Shown: one piece after another, positions 1,581-22,920 of the stretch | How positions within the stretch are numbered: the first letter of the stretch is position 1 | Layout of the letters: each line of letters begins with the position of its first letter | Virus record (IMG/VR): IMGVR_UViG_3300033148_003314 | Span: 1-22,943 of that record | Length of the DNA stretch: 22,943 nucleotides | Direction: 5' to 3' (one strand) | Source: a virus | Program-made: the position numbers and the translations under genes | The notes under the pieces: generated by a model | The model's input: the letters and a program-made list of their open reading frames with translations, nothing else | Told to the model about the DNA's origin: nothing | Database searches by the model: none

Positions 1581-3149
1581 ATGCTTACAGAACGCGAGTC
1601 AGCAGCATTTATTAAGCGCCAATCTGTAGCGGTTACTAACGCGCTTTTGTGGGCAGGCCTTCATGAAGCGTGCTATTTCTATGCCATACCCAACCGAAAC
1701 AAGTTCTGGCAGAGCGCGGAGAATCAAGGCCAGCAGCACGGAGCTCGCGTTTACGATACGACTGCCATTGAAGCAACGAAGACGTTTGTGTCAAAACTAC
1801 ATACAGCCATGACGCCGCCCCAAACCCAGTGGGGCTACATGCAAGTGGATAAGAACTGGGCAAAAAACAATCCGGAGTCCCTTAATGAGGCGCAATCGAT
1901 TCTCGATGATTACATGCGTAATCTATTTGATTATATTCATCAGTCTAATTTTGATGTCGTCATTAATGAGTGTTATTTTGATTCAGCAGTTGGTACGGCT
2001 TGTCTAGTTGTTAACTCCTACACCGAAAAGCAGCCACTACTATTCACCTCGATACCCATGGATAAACTTGCTATTGAAGAAGCCATGACGGGCAGGATTG
2101 AATCGTGGTATCGAAGTTGGGAAGCGGTGAAGATAAACGAGATTATTGTTCGCTGGCCTAAGGCTGTTATTCCAGACCATCTCCTTGAAAGCGCGGAATC
2201 TGACTCATGCGCTACCGTCGCCAAGATTAACGAAGGGGTTATGTTTATTCCTTCTAATTTAGACAAACCTTATCTGTATGTGGTCATGGCAAACAATGAA
2301 GAGCTCTACAGTGAGGCTTTCAAAGTAAATCCAGGGATTGTTTGGCGCTTCCAGAAGACAAACAGTGATATCTTTGGACGTGGCCCTATCATGGACGCAC
2401 TCCCATCAATTATATCGCTGAACGAACTAGCAAGGGTTGAGCTGGCAGCAGCTAACCTCAATACCTTCAAGCCTTACATGGCATTCAGTGATGCGGTCTT
2501 TAATCCTCACACGTTTGTTATGCAACCGATGTCGATTATTCCGATTGCCCCGATAAGCCTCCAAGGGCAGCCCCCATTAATCCCCATTCCTGATTCATCG
2601 GCCCCTCAGTTTTCTCAGTTAACCATTGCTGATTTAAGAATGCAGGTAAAAGAACTGCTATTTGCTCAATCACCACTGCAATCCGACTCAGTACAACCGC
2701 TGTCGGCAACTGAATCCATGATTGCCCAGCAGGAGTTGGCGGCAAAAATTGGCCCGTTATTCTCACGGCTCCAGCAAGAGTTTTTGTTTCCACTGCTTGA
2801 GCGTTGCGCATACATCCTCGAAACAACGGGAATTCTGCCTCGACCTAAAATTAAAAACGCTAAACTAAGCTTTCAGTATAAATCACCGCTGGCTTTAGCT
2901 AAGAACCAAGAGCAAATTGCTAGGATTGCCCAGTACATTCAGATTATCCAGGGAACTTTGGGCGCTGAAGAAGCCAAGCTCTACATAAACTCCAGCAAGT
3001 ACCCATGGATGCTAGCAAATCTCATGCAGTTAGACCCCGACTTCTTAAACACACCAGAAGATGTCGCGAGAGTAGCGCAGGAAATGCAAAACCAGATGGA
3101 AGCGCAGCAAGCGCAGGAACAACAACAACCACAACAAGCAGGGGGTTAA
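1581..3149 (+). CDS. Portal (head-tail connector) protein
   Basis: 522 residues, close to the T7 gp8 length of 536. The protein forms the dodecameric ring at one capsid vertex through which DNA enters and leaves. Visible family features are an N-terminal helical region with the segment TTAIEATKTFVSKLHTAM, the motif FGRGPIMDALP near residues 263-274 (the GRG-P-x-M-D-A-L-P signature of podoviral connectors), and SATESMIAQQE near residue 374 leading into a long helix that ends in LQQEFLFPLLERC. The last 20 or so residues are a Gln-rich low-complexity tail. TGGGGT at 1571-1576 supplies the ribosome site and overlaps the upstream stop. Upstream and downstream genes abut within 2 nt, consistent with one head-assembly operon. 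Confidence 0.93.
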   Translation: MLTERESAAFIKRQSVAVTNALLWAGLHEACYFYAIPNRNKFWQSAENQGQQHGARVYDTTAIEATKTFVSKLHTAMTPPQTQWGYMQVDKNWAKNNPESLNEAQSILDDYMRNLFDYIHQSNFDVVINECYFDSAVGTACLVVNSYTEKQPLLFTSIPMDKLAIEEAMTGRIESWYRSWEAVKINEIIVRWPKAVIPDHLLESAESDSCATVAKINEGVMFIPSNLDKPYLYVVMANNEELYSEAFKVNPGIVWRFQKTNSDIFGRGPIMDALPSIISLNELARVELAAANLNTFKPYMAFSDAVFNPHTFVMQPMSIIPIAPISLQGQPPLIPIPDSSAPQFSQLTIADLRMQVKELLFAQSPLQSDSVQPLSATESMIAQQELAAKIGPLFSRLQQEFLFPLLERCAYILETTGILPRPKIKNAKLSFQYKSPLALAKNQEQIARIAQYIQIIQGTLGAEEAKLYINSSKYPWMLANLMQLDPDFLNTPEDVARVAQEMQNQMEAQQAQEQQQPQQAGG

Positions 3150-3150
3150 A

Positions 3151-3474
3151 TTGGAGAAGGTTTTAGGTCAAGAAGAATATTTCCAGGGGTATCAGGACAA
3201 CATCGATAAACTCAGGGAGGGAGCCCCAGAAGTTGAATTCGACCGCATGTGTTTCGAGGTATTCAATAGCGCAGCGGGCAAAGCGTTATTGGAATTCCTC
3301 CAAGACAAGGTAGTATTGGCATCTGTTCCTCACGGCATGAGTGAAACTTACGCAACTTCTTGTGTGTATTACGAGGGGTATCGGGAGGGATATAGACAGA
3401 TAATTCATGCAGTCAAGAGCTATCCGGAGCGTCGTGAATCAGAGGAAAAAGCAAAATTACGGGGTGATAAATGA
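3151..3474 (+). CDS. Bbp19-like phage protein (TTG start)
   Basis: 107-residue protein whose core, residues about 33-90, resembles the Bbp19 family: a CFEVFNSAAGKALLEFL segment followed by a short linker and YYEGYREGYRQIIHAV. These correspond to the family pattern F-x-x-V-F-x-(S/T)-x-x-G-x-x-V/L-L-x-x-L then x-x-x-E-G-x-R-x-x-x-x-x-I. Bbp19-like genes commonly sit between portal and scaffold in podoviral head operons; their function is not established. The start must be TTG 3151, since the first in-frame ATG lies inside the conserved region. GGGGG at 3141-3145 serves as ribosome site 5 nt ahead. The stop overlaps the scaffold start by ATGA. The family call is from memory of motifs, so moderate confidence. 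Confidence 0.62.
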   Translation: MEKVLGQEEYFQGYQDNIDKLREGAPEVEFDRMCFEVFNSAAGKALLEFLQDKVVLASVPHGMSETYATSCVYYEGYREGYRQIIHAVKSYPERRESEEKAKLRGDK

Positions 3475-4163
3475 GCCTGATTTCGAATGAATCGGTTGAG
3501 GAGGTCGTTGATGATAACCCAGAGTCACAGGAGGCTTCAGAGCCATCTTGGTGGTGGGATAAATCTAACCCCGGAACTGGAGACCGGCCCGACTGGCTCC
3601 CTGAAAAATACAAAAGCGCTGAGGACACAGCTAAAGCATTCAAGGAACTTGAAAAGCGGCTCGGCAGTGCACCGGAACAGTACGACTGGAGTAAAGGCAA
3701 AAGTTGGGTAGATGAGCAGTACGAGCCCTTTCAGAAAATGGCGGAATTTGCTAAGTCAAACCACGTGCCCCAATCAGTGATGGATAGTATGCTGGAGTCA
3801 GTTGGAACGTACCTTGATGAATTCAACACGGACTATGCAGCGGAAAAGCAGGCACTCGGAGAGAATGCCGAGACCAGACTGAACACCGTTGATAACTGGG
3901 CGAAAGCTAATTTCAGTGAAGAAACCTACACATCGTTAATCGCAAATTTAAGAACTGCGGGCGACGTTAAAGCAATTGAAGAGATGAGGTCTAAAATGGT
4001 AGATGGTATGACAACAATCCCCACGGGCAATGAGACCGCCCCAACGGTTATGACCGTCAAGGAAATTCAAACCGAGATGTTGAAGAATTACGACCGGTAT
4101 AAAACCGACGAAGGCTACCGAGCAGAAATCAAAGGAAAGATTGCCCGAGCCATCGAAGCTTGA
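3471..4163 (+). CDS. Capsid scaffolding protein
   Basis: 230-residue acidic, hydrophilic protein likely acting as the internal scaffold for procapsid assembly (T7 gp9 role; gp9 is 307 residues). Characteristic features are an acidic disordered N-terminus (residues 1-25), then RPDWLPEKYKSAEDTAKAF (39-57), the W-L-x-E-K-Y/F-K-S-x-E-x-x-A-K-A-x-x-E-L-E-x-K/R-L motif shared by many phage scaffold proteins. A predicted helical region follows and a short basic helix closes the C-terminus (GKIARAIEA), where scaffold proteins usually contact the capsid protein. GGGGTGA at 3461-3467 is the ribosome site. The gene lies directly before the capsid gene, separated by a 162-bp structured leader. Confidence 0.88.
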   Translation: MSLISNESVEEVVDDNPESQEASEPSWWWDKSNPGTGDRPDWLPEKYKSAEDTAKAFKELEKRLGSAPEQYDWSKGKSWVDEQYEPFQKMAEFAKSNHVPQSVMDSMLESVGTYLDEFNTDYAAEKQALGENAETRLNTVDNWAKANFSEETYTSLIANLRTAGDVKAIEEMRSKMVDGMTTIPTGNETAPTVMTVKEIQTEMLKNYDRYKTDEGYRAEIKGKIARAIEA

Positions 4164-4325
4164 CATGGAGCGCGGTCTGGTGAACAATTAGGTATGAGTT
4201 CTACCAATCTCATTGAGGGTTGGCTATTGGGACACCTTATTTTGCTAGACCCCTAACGGGATACTCTAGGCCAGTAAGCCCTGCTAGAGAATACGGTTTT
4301 TTTACGTAACTACCAGGGGCAAACT
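4164..4325 (+). promoter_or_regulatory. Structured leader upstream of the capsid gene, with competing hairpins
   Basis: This non-coding gap of 162 bp precedes the most highly expressed late gene. Three foldable elements are visible. One: CCAA/TTGG plus CTC/GAG around 4203-4222. Two: CTAGA (4245-4249) with TCTAG (4265-4269), enclosing CCC/GGG. Three: CTCTAG (4264-4269) plus CAG (4272-4274) pairing with CTG-CTAGAG (4281-4289), with a 2-nt bulge. Elements two and three share TCTAG, so they exclude each other. Seven T residues follow at 4297-4303, 7 nt after the third stem. It may be an attenuator, a weak terminator, an RNase processing site or an mRNA-stabilising leader. AGGGG at 4315-4319 is the capsid ribosome site. 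No clear promoter hexamers are seen. Confidence 0.4.
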
Positions 4326-5156
4326 ATGTCACAGTCATTAAGTAATGTGGAGCAAATCGATTTTGACAGTCTTGTTAAAATTGAATACCAAGCAAACGGC
4401 CATCTCTTCCGAGATACCATCCGAACTAAAACTGACATCATCGGTGCTACCGTTGAATTCCGTAAGGTTGACCAAGTTATCGCGGTTCCAACAGCGTATC
4501 TTGCAGCCGTCACCATCCAAGACCCTGGTTACAGCAAAGTATCTGCTGCCATGCAGAAATACACAGCACCAACCGCGGTCGATGAAGTTCAAGAAATCAC
4601 GGTAAACTTTGACACCAAAATGGAAAATGCGATGGTTGTTGCTAAAGCCTTAGGCCGACGCTCTGACCAAATTTGTATTGATGCTTTGGCTGCTGACCCA
4701 GGCGAAACAATTGCTGATGGCGGAACCAACTTTAACTACAACAAGTTCACACAGATTCTTGAGTTCTTTGATGATAATGCTGTGCCTATGGCTGAGCGTT
4801 TTGTTGCGATGTCGGGCTCTAACTTCCGAAGCTTGATGAATGATGACCAGTTTATTTCATCTCGTTATACGACAAACTTTGCAGTTCAAAAAGGTGAAGC
4901 GTCTGACTTCTTGAATTTCAACATCATTCGCGTGCCAACGATGACTGAAGGTGGATTGCCACAGGTAGGTAATATCAACCAAGTGCTGGCGTTTCATAAA
5001 ATGTCTACAGGTATGGGTATTGGTAAAAACTTCCGCACCGAAATTAACTACATTGCTCAAAACACATCGTGGTTAATTAATGGCATATTCTCAGCTGGGG
5101 CCGTAGTTATAGATAACAAGGGGGTAATGGCTGTGGACTGTGATACATCTGTATAA
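4326..5156 (+). CDS. Major capsid protein
   Basis: 276-residue shell protein, expected to adopt the HK97 fold and form the icosahedral head. It resembles a widespread phage capsid group (Phage_capsid_2-like) more than T7 gp10, which is 345 residues. Shared features are the N-terminal region with FRDTIRTKTDIIGATVEF, the central EVQEITVNFDTK stretch followed by AKALGRRSDQICIDAL (a helix with the recurring G-R-R-x-D-Q motif), the FVAMSGSNFRSLMND segment, and a C-terminal TSWLINGIFSAGAVVIDNKG strand region where a W-L-V/I-N-G motif is typical. There is no sign of a frameshifted second form. It follows the scaffold gene and a structured leader, and is followed by a hairpin terminator and an antisense nuclease gene. 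Confidence 0.9.
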   Translation: MSQSLSNVEQIDFDSLVKIEYQANGHLFRDTIRTKTDIIGATVEFRKVDQVIAVPTAYLAAVTIQDPGYSKVSAAMQKYTAPTAVDEVQEITVNFDTKMENAMVVAKALGRRSDQICIDALAADPGETIADGGTNFNYNKFTQILEFFDDNAVPMAERFVAMSGSNFRSLMNDDQFISSRYTTNFAVQKGEASDFLNFNIIRVPTMTEGGLPQVGNINQVLAFHKMSTGMGIGKNFRTEINYIAQNTSWLINGIFSAGAVVIDNKGVMAVDCDTSV

Positions 5157-5186
5157 ATCATCAGTCTGAGTAAATTTTGCTCCAGA

Positions 5187-5765
5187 TTATACCTGCTCTT
5201 GCTTATGTTTGAGCAGGTATTTAATAGCTACATTCATGAGCTCGGTATTATCTTTAAAAAAACCGAGTCCTGAATTGCAATCAGAGCAAAGAAACTCCCT
5301 ATGTTTCCCAGTAGTATGGCAATGGTCTAAATAAAGGGAGCGAGCAGATTTAAATGGTCTTTGAGGTAGGCGACAGATGGCGCATAGATTGGATTGGCTT
5401 TGTAGCAATGCATCTTGCTCTTCAAATGTAAGGCCGAATTTTTTGAGGTAGCCATATTTCTTAGTGTAGCCCTCCCTTGATTTCCTATACGCCCGCTCTT
5501 TTTCGGGGTTGTAGCCCTTTTTTTTGACATCCCTTGCGCATTGCCCGCATCGGTAGGCGCTCTCACCGGTGCGGGTTTTGTCTCGACGGGCTTGCTTCGA
5601 AGTTAAAAGACCATGCTTTTTGCATCTTTTAACAGCCCAAGCAGGGAGGACTTCTTTATGCTGAGTAACTTCGTAGAGAAGCCGCTCAGTCATGTGGGGA
5701 TAGCAATAAGAAGAGTTTTCGTATCGGTCGTTAGGGCAGAAGGGGGCTTTGCATATATTTTTCAT
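5187..5765 (-). CDS. HNH nuclease, endonuclease VII type (free-standing, homing-like)
   Basis: 192-residue probable DNA endonuclease. Residues 128-170 carry the beta-beta-alpha-metal fold of T4 endonuclease VII: zinc ligands C128 and C131 (CAIC), active-site YLDHCH (145-150) with D147, H148 and H150, and LCSDCNSGLGFF (159-170) with C160, C163 and N164. An extra N-terminal Cys cluster (C5, C10, C21, H24) and RCGQC (72-76) may form further zinc fingers for DNA binding; the middle (80-110) is very Lys/Arg-rich. A GGAGAG ribosome site lies just before ATG. It is transcribed against the surrounding late operon, between capsid and accessory capsid genes, which is the usual setting of free-standing homing endonucleases. 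A Holliday-junction resolvase role is less likely from this position but cannot be excluded. Confidence 0.88.
   Translation of the reverse strand: MKNICKAPFCPNDRYENSSYCYPHMTERLLYEVTQHKEVLPAWAVKRCKKHGLLTSKQARRDKTRTGESAYRCGQCARDVKKKGYNPEKERAYRKSREGYTKKYGYLKKFGLTFEEQDALLQSQSNLCAICRLPQRPFKSARSLYLDHCHTTGKHREFLCSDCNSGLGFFKDNTELMNVAIKYLLKHKQEQV
5189..5222 (+). terminator. Hairpin terminator after the capsid gene
   Basis: A perfect 10-bp stem, ATACCTGCTC (5189-5198) with GAGCAGGTAT (5211-5220), has a 12-nt loop and is followed by TTTAAT on the + strand. It lies 33 nt after the capsid stop, where T7-like phages carry a late terminator after the capsid gene. It also encodes the last codons of the convergent nuclease gene, so it may limit transcription from both sides. 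The U-tract is short, so termination would be partial, allowing downstream tail genes to be expressed at lower level. Confidence 0.5.
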
Positions 5766-16983: not shown

Positions 16984-17955
16984 ATGTCAACGAATCAAAT
17001 AATCAATGATATCGAGCCAAGAACCCAGATTATCTCTGGGTCTGCCCAGACAGTGTTCAATGTGGCATGGACCGCGGACGTTGCTGCCAGCGTATTAGTT
17101 TACGCGAGAGCCTCAGGTGTTCCCGCGAATGACGCCACTCAGCTCGTCGCAGACAGCCATTACAACGTGACCTTCATTGGAGCTTCAGAGACCGTTCGAG
17201 TTACCTTCACCGTGGGGAGGCCTCTTGGGGATATCATTACAATCGTCAGAGCCACCGATTCTTCTAGAACAAATTTGTACACAAATACCAATTTCACACC
17301 CAGTATGCTTAATCAAGATTTTGGAACCGAGACGATGGTTCAGCAACAGAATCAAATGTACGGTCGTGACTTCGCCCCCCATTATAATTTCTCGGCTACC
17401 TACACCAACACGTCGGACACTAATATCGATTTAATTCTTCCGATTCTTGAGGCCAACCAAGTTTGGGTTAAAAATCCTTCTAATACGGCAATGGTTGCTG
17501 CGACTTTATCTGGCAGCGGAATTGGAGTAGAGACTGTTACCGGGACCGCCAATGAGGTTTTAGTAAATAACGCAGATGCGGTTAATCCTATCGTTGGCTT
17601 GCCTCCAGCTATTAGTGCTCCTGGAACCTTCACCATCCAAGGCACGGTGGCTTTAGACGCTGTTATAGATGATAATTCGTTTGCCACTGCAACGGATAGG
17701 AACGTCCCAACTTCCGAAAGTATAAAAGCTTATGTGGATTCCGTTGCAGGCGGAGGCTTTACAGTTATATTGACGTGCTTGATAGGAACTACCGCCAATC
17801 TTACAGGCACCTATGCAAATGGTGTCTTAGGTGTGGGTGCGACGCTTACCAATAACAGCACGCAGGTTGCACTTACGATTGACGGCGTTTTAACTCAAGT
17901 CGCCGACAGGATTTTAGTTAAAGACCAAACATCTCAGTTAGCCAACGGCGTATAA
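16984..17955 (+). CDS. Tail fibre, virion-attachment part (gp17 N-terminus-like), truncated by in-frame TAA
   Basis: 323 residues. The first 130 or so resemble the T7 gp17 N-terminal domain that binds the tail: residues 9-25 (DIEPRTQIISGSAQTVF), then VRVTFTVGRPLGDIITIVR and LYTNTNFTPSMLNQDFGTE, the order of strands and the F-x-x-x-x-L-N-x-D/N-F-x-x-x helix start found in this domain. A beta-rich shaft follows (about 160-250). The last 60 residues, ending ILVKDQTSQLANGV, match a common phage fibre module that normally continues as Y-x-L-T-R-A-T-D-Y-D-T-A-A-E. Here TAA stands at that point, and the expected continuation (LTRATDYDTAAEIIPG) is found in the same frame directly after it. AAGGA at 16973-16977 is the ribosome site. 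Confidence 0.82.
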   Translation: MSTNQIINDIEPRTQIISGSAQTVFNVAWTADVAASVLVYARASGVPANDATQLVADSHYNVTFIGASETVRVTFTVGRPLGDIITIVRATDSSRTNLYTNTNFTPSMLNQDFGTETMVQQQNQMYGRDFAPHYNFSATYTNTSDTNIDLILPILEANQVWVKNPSNTAMVAATLSGSGIGVETVTGTANEVLVNNADAVNPIVGLPPAISAPGTFTIQGTVALDAVIDDNSFATATDRNVPTSESIKAYVDSVAGGGFTVILTCLIGTTANLTGTYANGVLGVGATLTNNSTQVALTIDGVLTQVADRILVKDQTSQLANGV

Positions 17956-18006
17956 TTAACGCGAGCAACAGATTACGATACGGCCGCTGAAATAATTCCT
18001 GGGACT

Positions 18007-19500
18007 TTGGTTCCAGTTTCTAGCGGAACGGTTAACAGCGGCAGTACATGGCTCGAAACAGCTACAGTTACAACCGTGGGAACAGACCCAATTGTTTTTT
18101 CTATCTACTCCCAACCCGGGGGTGATGGTGGTGGCTCTAACCCGATTGGTTCAGTCGCATCTTTTGCATTAACAAGCGCACCAACCGGTTACTTGGTTTG
18201 TGATGGTGCAGCAATTAGCCGGGCTACTTATGCAGACCTTTTCTCGGCAATCGGGACAACCTGGGGTGTTGGTGACGGCGCGACAACTTTTAATATTCCT
18301 GATATGCAACGAAAAACTGGCGTGGGTTCGGGTGGAGCAGGCACAGTTACCCTCGGTAACTCGGTCGGTGACACCGGTGGTGCTGAAGATATCACATTAA
18401 CAACAGCCCAAATGCCAGCGCATACGCATAGCACTCGTATCACAGCAAACACAGGAACCGGAGTGGCCTTCCCAACAGGCTCAGGTTTTTTAGTGGAAGG
18501 CGTAGGTGTTACGGGAAGCACCGGCGGTGGTGGCTCCCATAGTAACATCCAGCCATCTGCAATCCTTTTGATATGCATTAAATCAAGTGCTGATTCATCA
18601 ATAGCTAGTGGTGGTAATGTCGGTGACTTCGTTGACTTTGGTGGCACGTCTGTACCGGCTGGTTGCTTAGTTCGTGACGGCGCAGCAGTGAGCCGAACAG
18701 CATACGCGGCTTTATTTACCGTTATCGGAACAACGTACGGCATTGGGGATGGCTCAACAACGTTTAACCTGCCAGATTCACAGCGGCGAGTTTCAGTTGG
18801 TTCTGGGGGCGTAGGCACTGTCGAGCTTGGTAATTCAGTCGGTGACCCGGGTGGAACAGAGGGCGTAACTTTAGTAACCGATGATATCCCTGCTGTTTTC
18901 CCATATACCAACGGTGGGATTACCAATCAGTTAAATTCAAATACTGGTGCGGCAGGTTATGTTCCTGCTACTGGTAGTGCATCTTGGACGGCTCCGTTAG
19001 GAAATGCCCATAACAACATTCAACCTTCTCTTGTCATACTGCCATGCATTCGCTTTGAAGGTGTCGCAGCAACAGTTGCGGTTTCAGCGTCACAAGCACA
19101 GATGGAGGCTGCTTCAAGCTCAGCAGTATTTAGTGCGCCAGCAGTTCAACAATTCCATCCTAGCGCAGCGAAAGCATGGGTTCAGTTTGACGGGGCTGGG
19201 GTTGTTGCAATTAACGCATCGTACAATGTGACGAGCATTACCGACAATGGCACGGGCGATTACACGGTTAACTTCACCACAGCTTTTTCAAGCATTAATT
19301 ACTCAGCTATAGCTACATGCGGAGGTGGTGTAAGCGTTTCGTACACCACAGGCACAGCTGTCTATGTCACAGGCCCGCAAGCCATCCCAACAGCTAGCGC
19401 GTGGAGGTTTGGTACGGGCCAAGGGTCGGTATCCGCTGCGGCTGGGCAGAGGGTTGATGGTGATTACATATCGGTAGTATTCCTTGGAGACCAGGCATGA
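18007..19500 (+). CDS. Tail fibre, receptor-binding part with two tail-collar domains (downstream of the in-frame TAA)
   Basis: 497 codons from TTG 18007, but the frame is open from 17956 and is the same as that of the upstream fibre gene, so this is the distal part of one 838-codon fibre. Two tandem phage tail-collar domains are visible. The first, about 46-192, has GYLVCDGAAISRATYADLFS, GDGATTFNIPD and the histidine motif AHTHS. The second, about 205-350, has CLVRDGAAVSRTAYAALF and GDGSTTFNLPD, with the His motif lost. The C-terminus (about 383-497) carries FHPSAAKAWVQFDGAG and INASYNVTSITDNGTGDYTV, a module common in phage fibres. Independent translation looks unlikely: no ATG or strong ribosome site is near 18007. 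It needs readthrough, or is a pseudogene fragment, or reflects a sequence error. Confidence 0.75.
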   Translation: MVPVSSGTVNSGSTWLETATVTTVGTDPIVFSIYSQPGGDGGGSNPIGSVASFALTSAPTGYLVCDGAAISRATYADLFSAIGTTWGVGDGATTFNIPDMQRKTGVGSGGAGTVTLGNSVGDTGGAEDITLTTAQMPAHTHSTRITANTGTGVAFPTGSGFLVEGVGVTGSTGGGGSHSNIQPSAILLICIKSSADSSIASGGNVGDFVDFGGTSVPAGCLVRDGAAVSRTAYAALFTVIGTTYGIGDGSTTFNLPDSQRRVSVGSGGVGTVELGNSVGDPGGTEGVTLVTDDIPAVFPYTNGGITNQLNSNTGAAGYVPATGSASWTAPLGNAHNNIQPSLVILPCIRFEGVAATVAVSASQAQMEAASSSAVFSAPAVQQFHPSAAKAWVQFDGAGVVAINASYNVTSITDNGTGDYTVNFTTAFSSINYSAIATCGGGVSVSYTTGTAVYVTGPQAIPTASAWRFGTGQGSVSAAAGQRVDGDYISVVFLGDQA

Positions 19501-19946
19501 TTAATACAAGAATAGCTTACAAGAATAGCGATGGCGGCGTATCAATCGTGATACCTACGCCTGAGTTTTGTAAAAATAATGCAAATAGCATGGCTGAGTT
19601 ACTCGCGAGCTCAATTCATGAAGGCGCTATCTTCGAAGAGCTCAAGGTTGATGACATCCCAACCGACCGATATTTTAGGAACGCGTGGCGTTTAAATGGC
19701 GGCATTCACACAGACATGGATTGTGCTCGTGGGATTCACCTCGATTGTTTGCGTAAAGTTCGTAACGAAAAGCTTGAAGAGCTGGATGTTACGTTTCAGC
19801 GGGCGCTAGAGAGTAAAGATGTTGCTGCTCAAGACTCCATTGCAGCTAAGAAACAAGCACTAAGAGATATGCCAAACTCAGTTGATTTAAGCGCTCTTTC
19901 TGAGCAAGAGCTAAAAAACTATTTGCCGGATATACTATCCAGCTAA
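19497..19946 (+). CDS. Phage tail fibre-associated/assembly-like protein
   Basis: 149 residues. The layout is a short N-terminal beta unit (RIAYKNSDGGVSIVIPTPEF), a central DIPTDRYFRNAWRLNGG (residues 53-69), then DMDCARGIHLDCLRKVRNEKL and a helical segment with AAKKQALRDMP (116-126). The D-I/L-P-x-D-R-x-F-R-x-A-W and A-R-x-I-H-x-x-x-L-R-x-x-R motifs recur in small proteins encoded directly after phage tail fibre genes, often called fibre-assembly or hypothetical proteins. Its biochemical role is not established; a chaperone for the preceding fibre is inference. It overlaps the fibre stop by ATGA, so its translation is probably coupled to the distal fibre frame. That argues that the distal fibre is, or recently was, translated. 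Confidence 0.62.
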   Translation: MINTRIAYKNSDGGVSIVIPTPEFCKNNANSMAELLASSIHEGAIFEELKVDDIPTDRYFRNAWRLNGGIHTDMDCARGIHLDCLRKVRNEKLEELDVTFQRALESKDVAAQDSIAAKKQALRDMPNSVDLSALSEQELKNYLPDILSS

Positions 19947-20527: not shown

Positions 20528-21385
20528 ATGGCTGATATTAAATGGAGTGCGTTCCCGGATGGCGGCGCGATTGTCGACAGCGATAAGTCGGTCGGGTTGC
20601 GCACAGGCACTAACATGCAATTTGATGCCAATATTTTTGGTGATGATATCACCGTCAATGGCGTCACCGTTGGTAAGGGCTTAGCCTCTCTCGCTAATAA
20701 CACAGCAGTGGGCGTGGATGCGCTTGATGCAAATACAACAGGAAATTTTAATGCGGCCGTAGGAGATGGTGCTCTAGGTGGGAACACGATAGGACTCAAT
20801 AACACAGCAGTGGGGTCTCTGGCTTTACTGACGCAATCTACTGTCTCTAATAATACAGCCGTAGGACAATCAGCCCTGCGCGTCCTTACATCGGGGGGCA
20901 CAAATTGTGCGTTCGGGACACTTGCGGCGACTGCTTCTACCACCCTGAATAACTCGGTGGCTATGGGGTATCGTGCGTTATCCGCTGCTGGCGGGGAGCA
21001 CACTATTGGGATTGGACGAGAGGCAGTCAGTAGTTCTACGGGCGGATATAATGTCACGGTCGGCGGTTTCTCTGGATACACCGGGGCGGCGGGAGCTGTT
21101 GCAATAACTACCGGCTCAAGCTCTACCCTCTTAGGCCATCAAGCAGGTGTTGATTCAGCATCAGCAATTGGGTGCTTATCACTTGGTAGAGACGCTGTTT
21201 CAGAAAAATCCACAGGTGCCACATCAAGCGATAATGGTCCAGGTTTGGCCATTGGAAGTGCAACATTCCCTGTGGGATTCAGAGGGGATGCCTCGCTTTA
21301 CCCAGCCGCTGGTACGTCTGCTGGTTACGTGCGTGTCAAGTGGAACGGGGTGAACTACAAATTATTATTGCTGGCGGATGTTTAA
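20528..21385 (+). CDS. Tail fibre-type protein with trimeric-adhesin-like N-T-A-V-G repeats
   Basis: 285 residues, probably a trimeric fibre or side-fibre protein. After an N-terminal segment (MADIKWSAFPDGGAIVDSD, residues 1-19) that may be an attachment region, residues 56-210 contain imperfect repeats of N-N-T/S-A-V/M-G-x-x-A-L (NNTAVGVDAL, NNTAVGSLAL, NNTAVGQSAL, NNSVAMGYRAL and weaker copies). Such repeats form the left-handed beta-roll of YadA-type heads and also occur in phage fibres. The C-terminus ends GYVRVKWNGVNYKLLLL, a compact beta domain. GGAG lies 7 nt before ATG. Neighbouring genes before and after are also fibre-type. Receptor binding is inference. Confidence 0.72.
   Translation: MADIKWSAFPDGGAIVDSDKSVGLRTGTNMQFDANIFGDDITVNGVTVGKGLASLANNTAVGVDALDANTTGNFNAAVGDGALGGNTIGLNNTAVGSLALLTQSTVSNNTAVGQSALRVLTSGGTNCAFGTLAATASTTLNNSVAMGYRALSAAGGEHTIGIGREAVSSSTGGYNVTVGGFSGYTGAAGAVAITTGSSSTLLGHQAGVDSASAIGCLSLGRDAVSEKSTGATSSDNGPGLAIGSATFPVGFRGDASLYPAAGTSAGYVRVKWNGVNYKLLLLADV
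20696..20814 (+). repeat. In-frame 17-bp direct repeats within a fibre gene
   Basis: The 17-mer AATAACACAGCAGTGGG occurs at 20696-20712 and again, identically, at 20798-20814, 102 bp (34 codons) apart, in the same reading frame. Both encode NNTAVG. A diverged third copy follows further on. Recombination between the two would remove exactly 34 residues without breaking the frame. Confidence 0.8.
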
Positions 21386-21402: not shown

Positions 21403-22920
21403 ATGGTTGACATAGTATTTGATGGCTCGGTTACAGCTAGCTCATTCATCGGGGGTGGTGGTGGTGGGACTGTATATTCTGAATCCACAGGTCTTTTAAC
21501 CGGCGGCGTTTTATCTACCGGCGCAGCGGCCACAGAATACAGTATTTCCGATGGTACAGGTCAGATTGTTGCTGCCGATGGCACTAAGACCGACGTCAGT
21601 TGGACGGGAAAAATAAACATAACCCCCGTGGCACTTTTAACCGCTAATATTAGCTTTGTTGGCATTACAGCCGCAGGCGCAGTCATAGAAAGTACCGCCG
21701 CATTTACGAATGTACAACAAAGAACAATTATTCAATTAGGTGTCGCTGTACATGTAAACAGAGTAACTGTTGATGCTGTAAACAACGAACAGCATGTATC
21801 CTACAATACCAACAGTCAATTAAATGACCTTTCATCTGCAATCGGGTTTTTCAATGTCTCCGGTAATGTAATTACAGCCAACGGTGCAAACTTAAGTATA
21901 GATAAATCCGTTGGTGATATGTATGGAATAGGCGTTAACTACGGTGTAGATATTGATAATCCTAACGTCTTAACATTAGCATTATTAACAGCAGCTACTT
22001 TTCAATATCGTTTCTCAGACGGAAGCAACGGCACAACTGGAATCTTTATTGACCCCGACAATCTCGATGACGGCTCCGGCGGGTTAACCCCGCTACCGGG
22101 TAATAGGTGGTCAATACAAAGGGTGTATTCATTCACCTCTAACAATCTTAAGTTGCAGCTCGGCCAAACTGAGTACGGTTCAAAAGACGCAGCAATTGCT
22201 GGCATAACCTCAGGCACGTTTGTCACAGAGCCTTCAATTGCCGCGAATGGCTTACTTAGAGGGTTCATTGTAGTAAGGAGCGGCACAACTGATTTAACCC
22301 AGACCAACAGAGTAGCATTTGAAATTTTAACGAACTCAACCCAAGGTGCTTTTACATTACGCAGGGGTTCAGCAGCAGATACAGACGATATCTATCAAGG
22401 CCAAAACAATGCAGGCACTAAAACTTTTTCGGTTGACGGTAATGGCTTGATAACGTCAACAGGTATTAACTTAGGTGATGAGACGCTGGCTAATTATGTT
22501 GAGGGTACTTGGACACCAGCTTTTACCTGCGCAACACCAGGCGACTTAAGCGTGGTCTATACTAGCCGCTCCGGAAGGTACACACGCATAGGTAATACGG
22601 TGTTCGTTCGGCATCAACTCACCTGTGTGCCGACATACACTACGGCTAGTGGTCAGTTAAGGTTTTCATCACTTCCGTTTGCATCGGGTGTGGCTGGTGG
22701 TGATGTATGTGGGTTCGCTATCCAGCTAGCCGCCGGATTCACCTGGGGTGGTATTCCAGGAACGCAACTTCTAGCTGGGGTAGGCGGCACTTCTACCAAT
22801 GCTACGCTCACCGCAATTTTCTCAGGTGGTGGTTCGGAAATGATAGATATAGCCGACATAACAGGCGGTAGCGGAAGCACTATTATTCTTAACTTTTCTG
22901 GTACGTACATTATAGGATGA
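21403..22920 (+). CDS. Tail fibre/receptor-binding protein with Gly-rich hinge
   Basis: 505 residues. A short N-terminal strand (MVDIVFDGSVTASSFI, residues 1-16) is followed by six glycines (17-22) and then a long beta-rich body. The C-terminal 140 residues contain YVEGTWTPAF, a linker, then YTSRSGRYTRIGNTVFVRHQ and LRFSSLPFAS. This pattern (E-G-x-W-T-P ... G-x-Y-T-R-I/V-G-x-x-V-x-V ... I/F-x-x-L-P-F) is a widespread distal module in phage fibres and tailspikes. No hydrolase active site is recognisable. AAGGA lies just before ATG 21403. It is the third large fibre-type gene in the cassette. Direct binding to a host surface sugar or protein is inference. Confidence 0.75.
   Translation: MVDIVFDGSVTASSFIGGGGGGTVYSESTGLLTGGVLSTGAAATEYSISDGTGQIVAADGTKTDVSWTGKINITPVALLTANISFVGITAAGAVIESTAAFTNVQQRTIIQLGVAVHVNRVTVDAVNNEQHVSYNTNSQLNDLSSAIGFFNVSGNVITANGANLSIDKSVGDMYGIGVNYGVDIDNPNVLTLALLTAATFQYRFSDGSNGTTGIFIDPDNLDDGSGGLTPLPGNRWSIQRVYSFTSNNLKLQLGQTEYGSKDAAIAGITSGTFVTEPSIAANGLLRGFIVVRSGTTDLTQTNRVAFEILTNSTQGAFTLRRGSAADTDDIYQGQNNAGTKTFSVDGNGLITSTGINLGDETLANYVEGTWTPAFTCATPGDLSVVYTSRSGRYTRIGNTVFVRHQLTCVPTYTTASGQLRFSSLPFASGVAGGDVCGFAIQLAAGFTWGGIPGTQLLAGVGGTSTNATLTAIFSGGGSEMIDIADITGGSGSTIILNFSGTYIIG

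Follow-up and report, generated by a model that had tools for sequence, protein, structure and literature searches.

A net 39-nucleotide loss inside a conserved module may have truncated the tail fibre gene of an uncultivated T7-like virus

Judging from its homologues, the tail fibre gene of an uncultivated virus with a T7-like structural gene cluster lacks about 39 bases, and a stop codon stands in their place; some version of the segment is present in each of the 188 relatives examined. The explanation that we consider probable is an ordinary broken gene, in which a small in-frame deletion created a stop at the junction codon and the fibre would be truncated. The window, i.e. the whole stretch of DNA analysed, is a single record of 22,943 bases (IMG/VR record IMGVR_UViG_3300033148_003314).

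The frame from 16984 to 19500 was open except for a single internal stop, the TAA at 17953-17955. Reading the frame thus confirmed the split described in an earlier note on this DNA, and the flanking peptides matched those quoted there. The half before the TAA encoded 323 aa. Downstream of it, 514 codons followed without a second stop, and the other two frames held 20 and 39 stops. The second half consisted of the end of the module, two tail collar domains (PF07484) and a C-terminal domain common to other fibres. Reassignment of TAA to a sense codon was rejected, because ten other genes in the window also end with TAA as their normal stop. The features of the region are as follows.

16984..17955, + strand: 5' half of the fibre gene, ending at the TAA and encoding 323 aa (virion-attachment part at the N terminus, linker repeats and the beginning of a beta-rich module); 70% identity to the start of the intact fibre of L028; matches PDB 9efk orf22 residues 3-320; SD-like energy -6.2
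17731..17952, + strand: upstream part of the conserved module (YVDSVAGG...KDQTSQLANGV); 80-85% identity to L002-L004
17953..17955, + strand: junction TAA, where close homologues have 14 residues and a net 39 nt are missing, from the homologue alignments and 9efk
17956..18117, + strand: downstream part of the same module (LTRATDYDT...DPIVFS); 80-85% identity to L002/L003; 9efk residues 335-385
18130..19062, + strand: two phage tail collar domains, 3' of the stop; Pfam PF07484 in two stretches, E=1.9e-40; 72% identity to L004
19063..19500, + strand: fibre C-terminal domain, 3' of the stop; 67% identity to the end of L002 ORF2 and 53% to L028; phrog_11355 tail fibre
19497..19946, + strand: tail assembly chaperone-like gene, neighbour of the fibre also in relatives (L002, L004, L028); weak PF16778; phrog_20196
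20528..21385, + strand: tail-spike/virion structural-like gene, possible second receptor-binding protein; phrog_4636, phrog_6002; relatives in L002 and L028
21403..22920, + strand: second tail-fibre-like gene, possible further receptor-binding protein; phrog_5668, phrog_16641

The genes of the window were ordered as portal, scaffold, capsid, tail tubular A/B, internal virion proteins and fibre, so that the fibre gene follows the large internal virion protein as in T7-type podophages. Its N-terminal attachment domain was related to a known fibre, PDB 9efk orf22 (E=8e-20 over residues 4-323). A Pfam search of the 5' half matched no model, the T7 fibre model included, and the frame that would run intact to the distal receptor-binding end in a T7-type fibre was interrupted at the TAA. 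An endonuclease VII-like gene on the - strand at 5187-5765 separates the capsid gene from the structural gene that follows.

In the relatives L002, L003, L004 and many others, 14 residues separated 'NGV' from 'LTRATDYD', where the window has the TAA alone. Aligned as DNA with L002, L003 and L004, the window showed a gap of 39 nt at precisely the position of the stop. The 9efk orf22 protein (18 chains) has the same N-terminal part and module, and both halves of the window gene aligned to it in the same order. It is, however, intact: the first half of the window gene aligned up to residue 320 and the second half from residue 335, leaving the 14 residues 321-334 unmatched at the position of the stop. 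The collar region of the window gave no match to orf22. Because the flanks lie 14 residues apart in both the relatives and 9efk orf22, a net 39 nt are missing; this equals 13 codons, and the frame was therefore kept. The proposal of the earlier note that a single fibre gene carries the stop within one recognisable module was borne out. Its suggested causes, mutation of a Tyr codon to TAA or deletion of 3 bases, turned out to be wrong given the size of the loss.

Across the 188 homologues, a set partly found with patterns that include the hairpin start and hence biased towards loci keeping the hairpin, the missing segment measured 7-15 residues and exactly 14 in 113 of them, compared with zero in the window. 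None of these homologous loci, from viral and bacterial contigs, had an in-frame stop in the matched module, and in none did the frame end within 10 codons past the module. Among the 26 loci found by upstream patterns only, all had the hairpin and none had a stop. The missing hairpin was not found elsewhere in the window, and no phage record matched the window at the DNA level. Exact-pattern scans of viral contigs, from which records very near the window may be excluded, revealed no other contig from this phage, whether carrying the junction or lacking it.

For L003, AlphaFold predicted the intact module with a pLDDT of 94.9. In this prediction, the missing residues 75-88 formed a beta-hairpin of the compact module, taking in the greater part of strand 73-79, the turn and the beginning of strand 88-91. 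When the window module was read through the stop, the predicted pLDDT was 74.2. Since the value drops without the hairpin, the module of a readthrough product is probably also damaged. A Foldseek search of the module against the PDB gave no significant match, whereas a sequence profile does find 9efk.

An ordinary broken gene would arise as follows. The tail fibre of a T7-type podophage would lose about 39 nt (13 codons net) within a conserved beta-rich module, and the loss, beginning inside a conserved Tyr codon of the presumed parent sequence, would make TAA the new junction codon. A single loss that starts within the Tyr codon accounts at once for both the stop and the preserved frame. Translation would end at 323 residues, leaving a stub with the attachment domain and without the collar domains and the C-terminal tip. 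The lesion may be recent or strain-specific, and the phage may rely on the downstream spike/fibre genes, of which those at 20528-21385 and 21403-22920 could keep it infective. Two points count against a deletion: it is seen in a single contig only and may be absent from the real population, and a lytic phage would not be expected to have an essential fibre broken in its dominant allele.

Both halves of the fibre gene show purifying selection in pairwise comparisons. The two parts of the module, before and after the stop, had a pN/pS of 0.14-0.25, the collar region had 0.36 and the C-terminal domain 0.29-0.43, which resembles neighbouring genes; with synonymous sites near saturation, these values reflect mostly the time before the break, and selection before and after it is inseparable. 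Because both halves are under purifying selection and the 514 codons hold no second stop, the break probably arose recently or is not biological.

The latter case is the main rival, namely an artefact of assembly, amplification or sequencing, with an intact fibre in the real phage and a 39-nt gap that comes from the library or the assembly. It fits with a record that is a single uncultivated virus fragment for which the viral contig scans yielded no confirming second contig, and with two fibre halves that look functional among otherwise intact structural genes. However, the flanks of the segment in relatives share no long repeat that an assembler would skip over, and a clean loss of 39 nt is not typical of short-read error. 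We regard such an artefact as unlikely, although it deserves serious consideration.

The collar region at 18130-19287 had a pS of 0.47 to L004, compared with 0.65-0.9 for the flanking parts to any relative, which suggests that a cassette was recently exchanged within the fibre. The fibre is a mosaic, with a collar region like that of L004 and a module like that of L002/L003, and imprecise recombination rather than a simple deletion could have made the junction; the fibre would be truncated either way. But both sides of the junction resemble L002 and L003 to a similar degree, with no switch of source exactly there, and we consider this origin improbable.

A functional split or a leaky stop, by which both halves would be made through restart or readthrough as a two-part or regulated fibre, would be consistent with the open and conserved downstream frame and with the two tandem fibre genes found in each of L002 and L004. 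In these two relatives, the module family, the C-terminal domain and the chaperone neighbour are the same as in the window, and distal parts lie in a separate gene. However, their second gene starts with an ATG that follows an AAGGA-like site; this start precedes the module or the collar and lies outside the hairpin, and their first gene has a complete C-terminal domain of its own. As boundary and signals differ from those of the window, a two-gene fibre of this kind was rejected. L028/L030 has one intact fibre of 626 aa, which likewise differs from the break in the window. Within the fibre gene cluster of L003, an HNH-like endonuclease gene lies at 5038-5661 (motif judged by eye), and several tandem copies of the linker 'PGTFTI..VLDSIIDDDTFATATATN.PTSESVKAYVD' occur at 2843-4684; the window fibre has one copy of this spacer repeat of variable number.

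In the window, the part after the stop showed no credible start codon with a ribosome-binding site that would make it a second gene. For the in-frame ATG/GTG/TTG candidates there, the anti-SD energy lay between +1.9 and -5.4 kcal/mol, against about -6 kcal/mol or lower for most annotated gene starts in the window. The candidates ahead of the collar domains reached -2.0 (18007) and +0.8 kcal/mol (18076), and the two best, 18493 (-5.4 kcal/mol) and 18463 (-4.3 kcal/mol), fall within the first collar domain. A separate start for the second half was rejected, in line with the earlier note, which had seen no good start site there. As for readthrough, the RNA 3' of the stop was not unusually stable or structured (fold z -1.3), UAA followed by U is an efficient terminator, and a stop with flanking signals conserved in relatives was absent, none of the 188 homologues having a stop in the matched module. 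The leaky stop envisaged by the earlier note is unlikely to give a normal fibre, because its product would still lack the hairpin and its module is predicted to fold less well (pLDDT from 95 to 74). No support was found for the note's host-range switching. Taken as a whole, a functional split or leaky stop is very unlikely; a controlled switch is disfavoured, and most likely the gene is simply broken or the sequence is in error. That a truncated adaptor-like fibre is stably carried, with the distal part coming from rare readthrough or another supply to give two kinds of virion, is hardly credible.

If the deletion is real, the virus would add one more natural case of a phage with a broken host-recognition fibre, and would suggest that infection can be sustained by its other spike or fibre genes. 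A stop inside a fibre gene should also be compared with relatives before it is called a point mutation or a leaky codon. An ordinary broken gene would resemble stf, the side tail fibre gene of phage lambda, which is disrupted by a frameshift in the laboratory strain (Hendrix and Duda 1992, as cited in PMC10721106 and PMC3945230). In both, one lesion breaks a tail fibre gene in two, and the window likewise has a single lesion relative to intact homologues and no restart. They differ in that the lambda lesion is a frameshift for which the intact parent is known and a phenotype has been shown, whereas that of the window is a net 39-nt loss with an in-frame stop, known from sequence alone. According to the same papers (PMC10721106, PMC3945230), lambda survives because another protein binds the receptor, and laboratory T5 lost its side fibres and is viable (PMC11313276). 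In both of these known cases, the phage outlived the breakage of its fibre gene.
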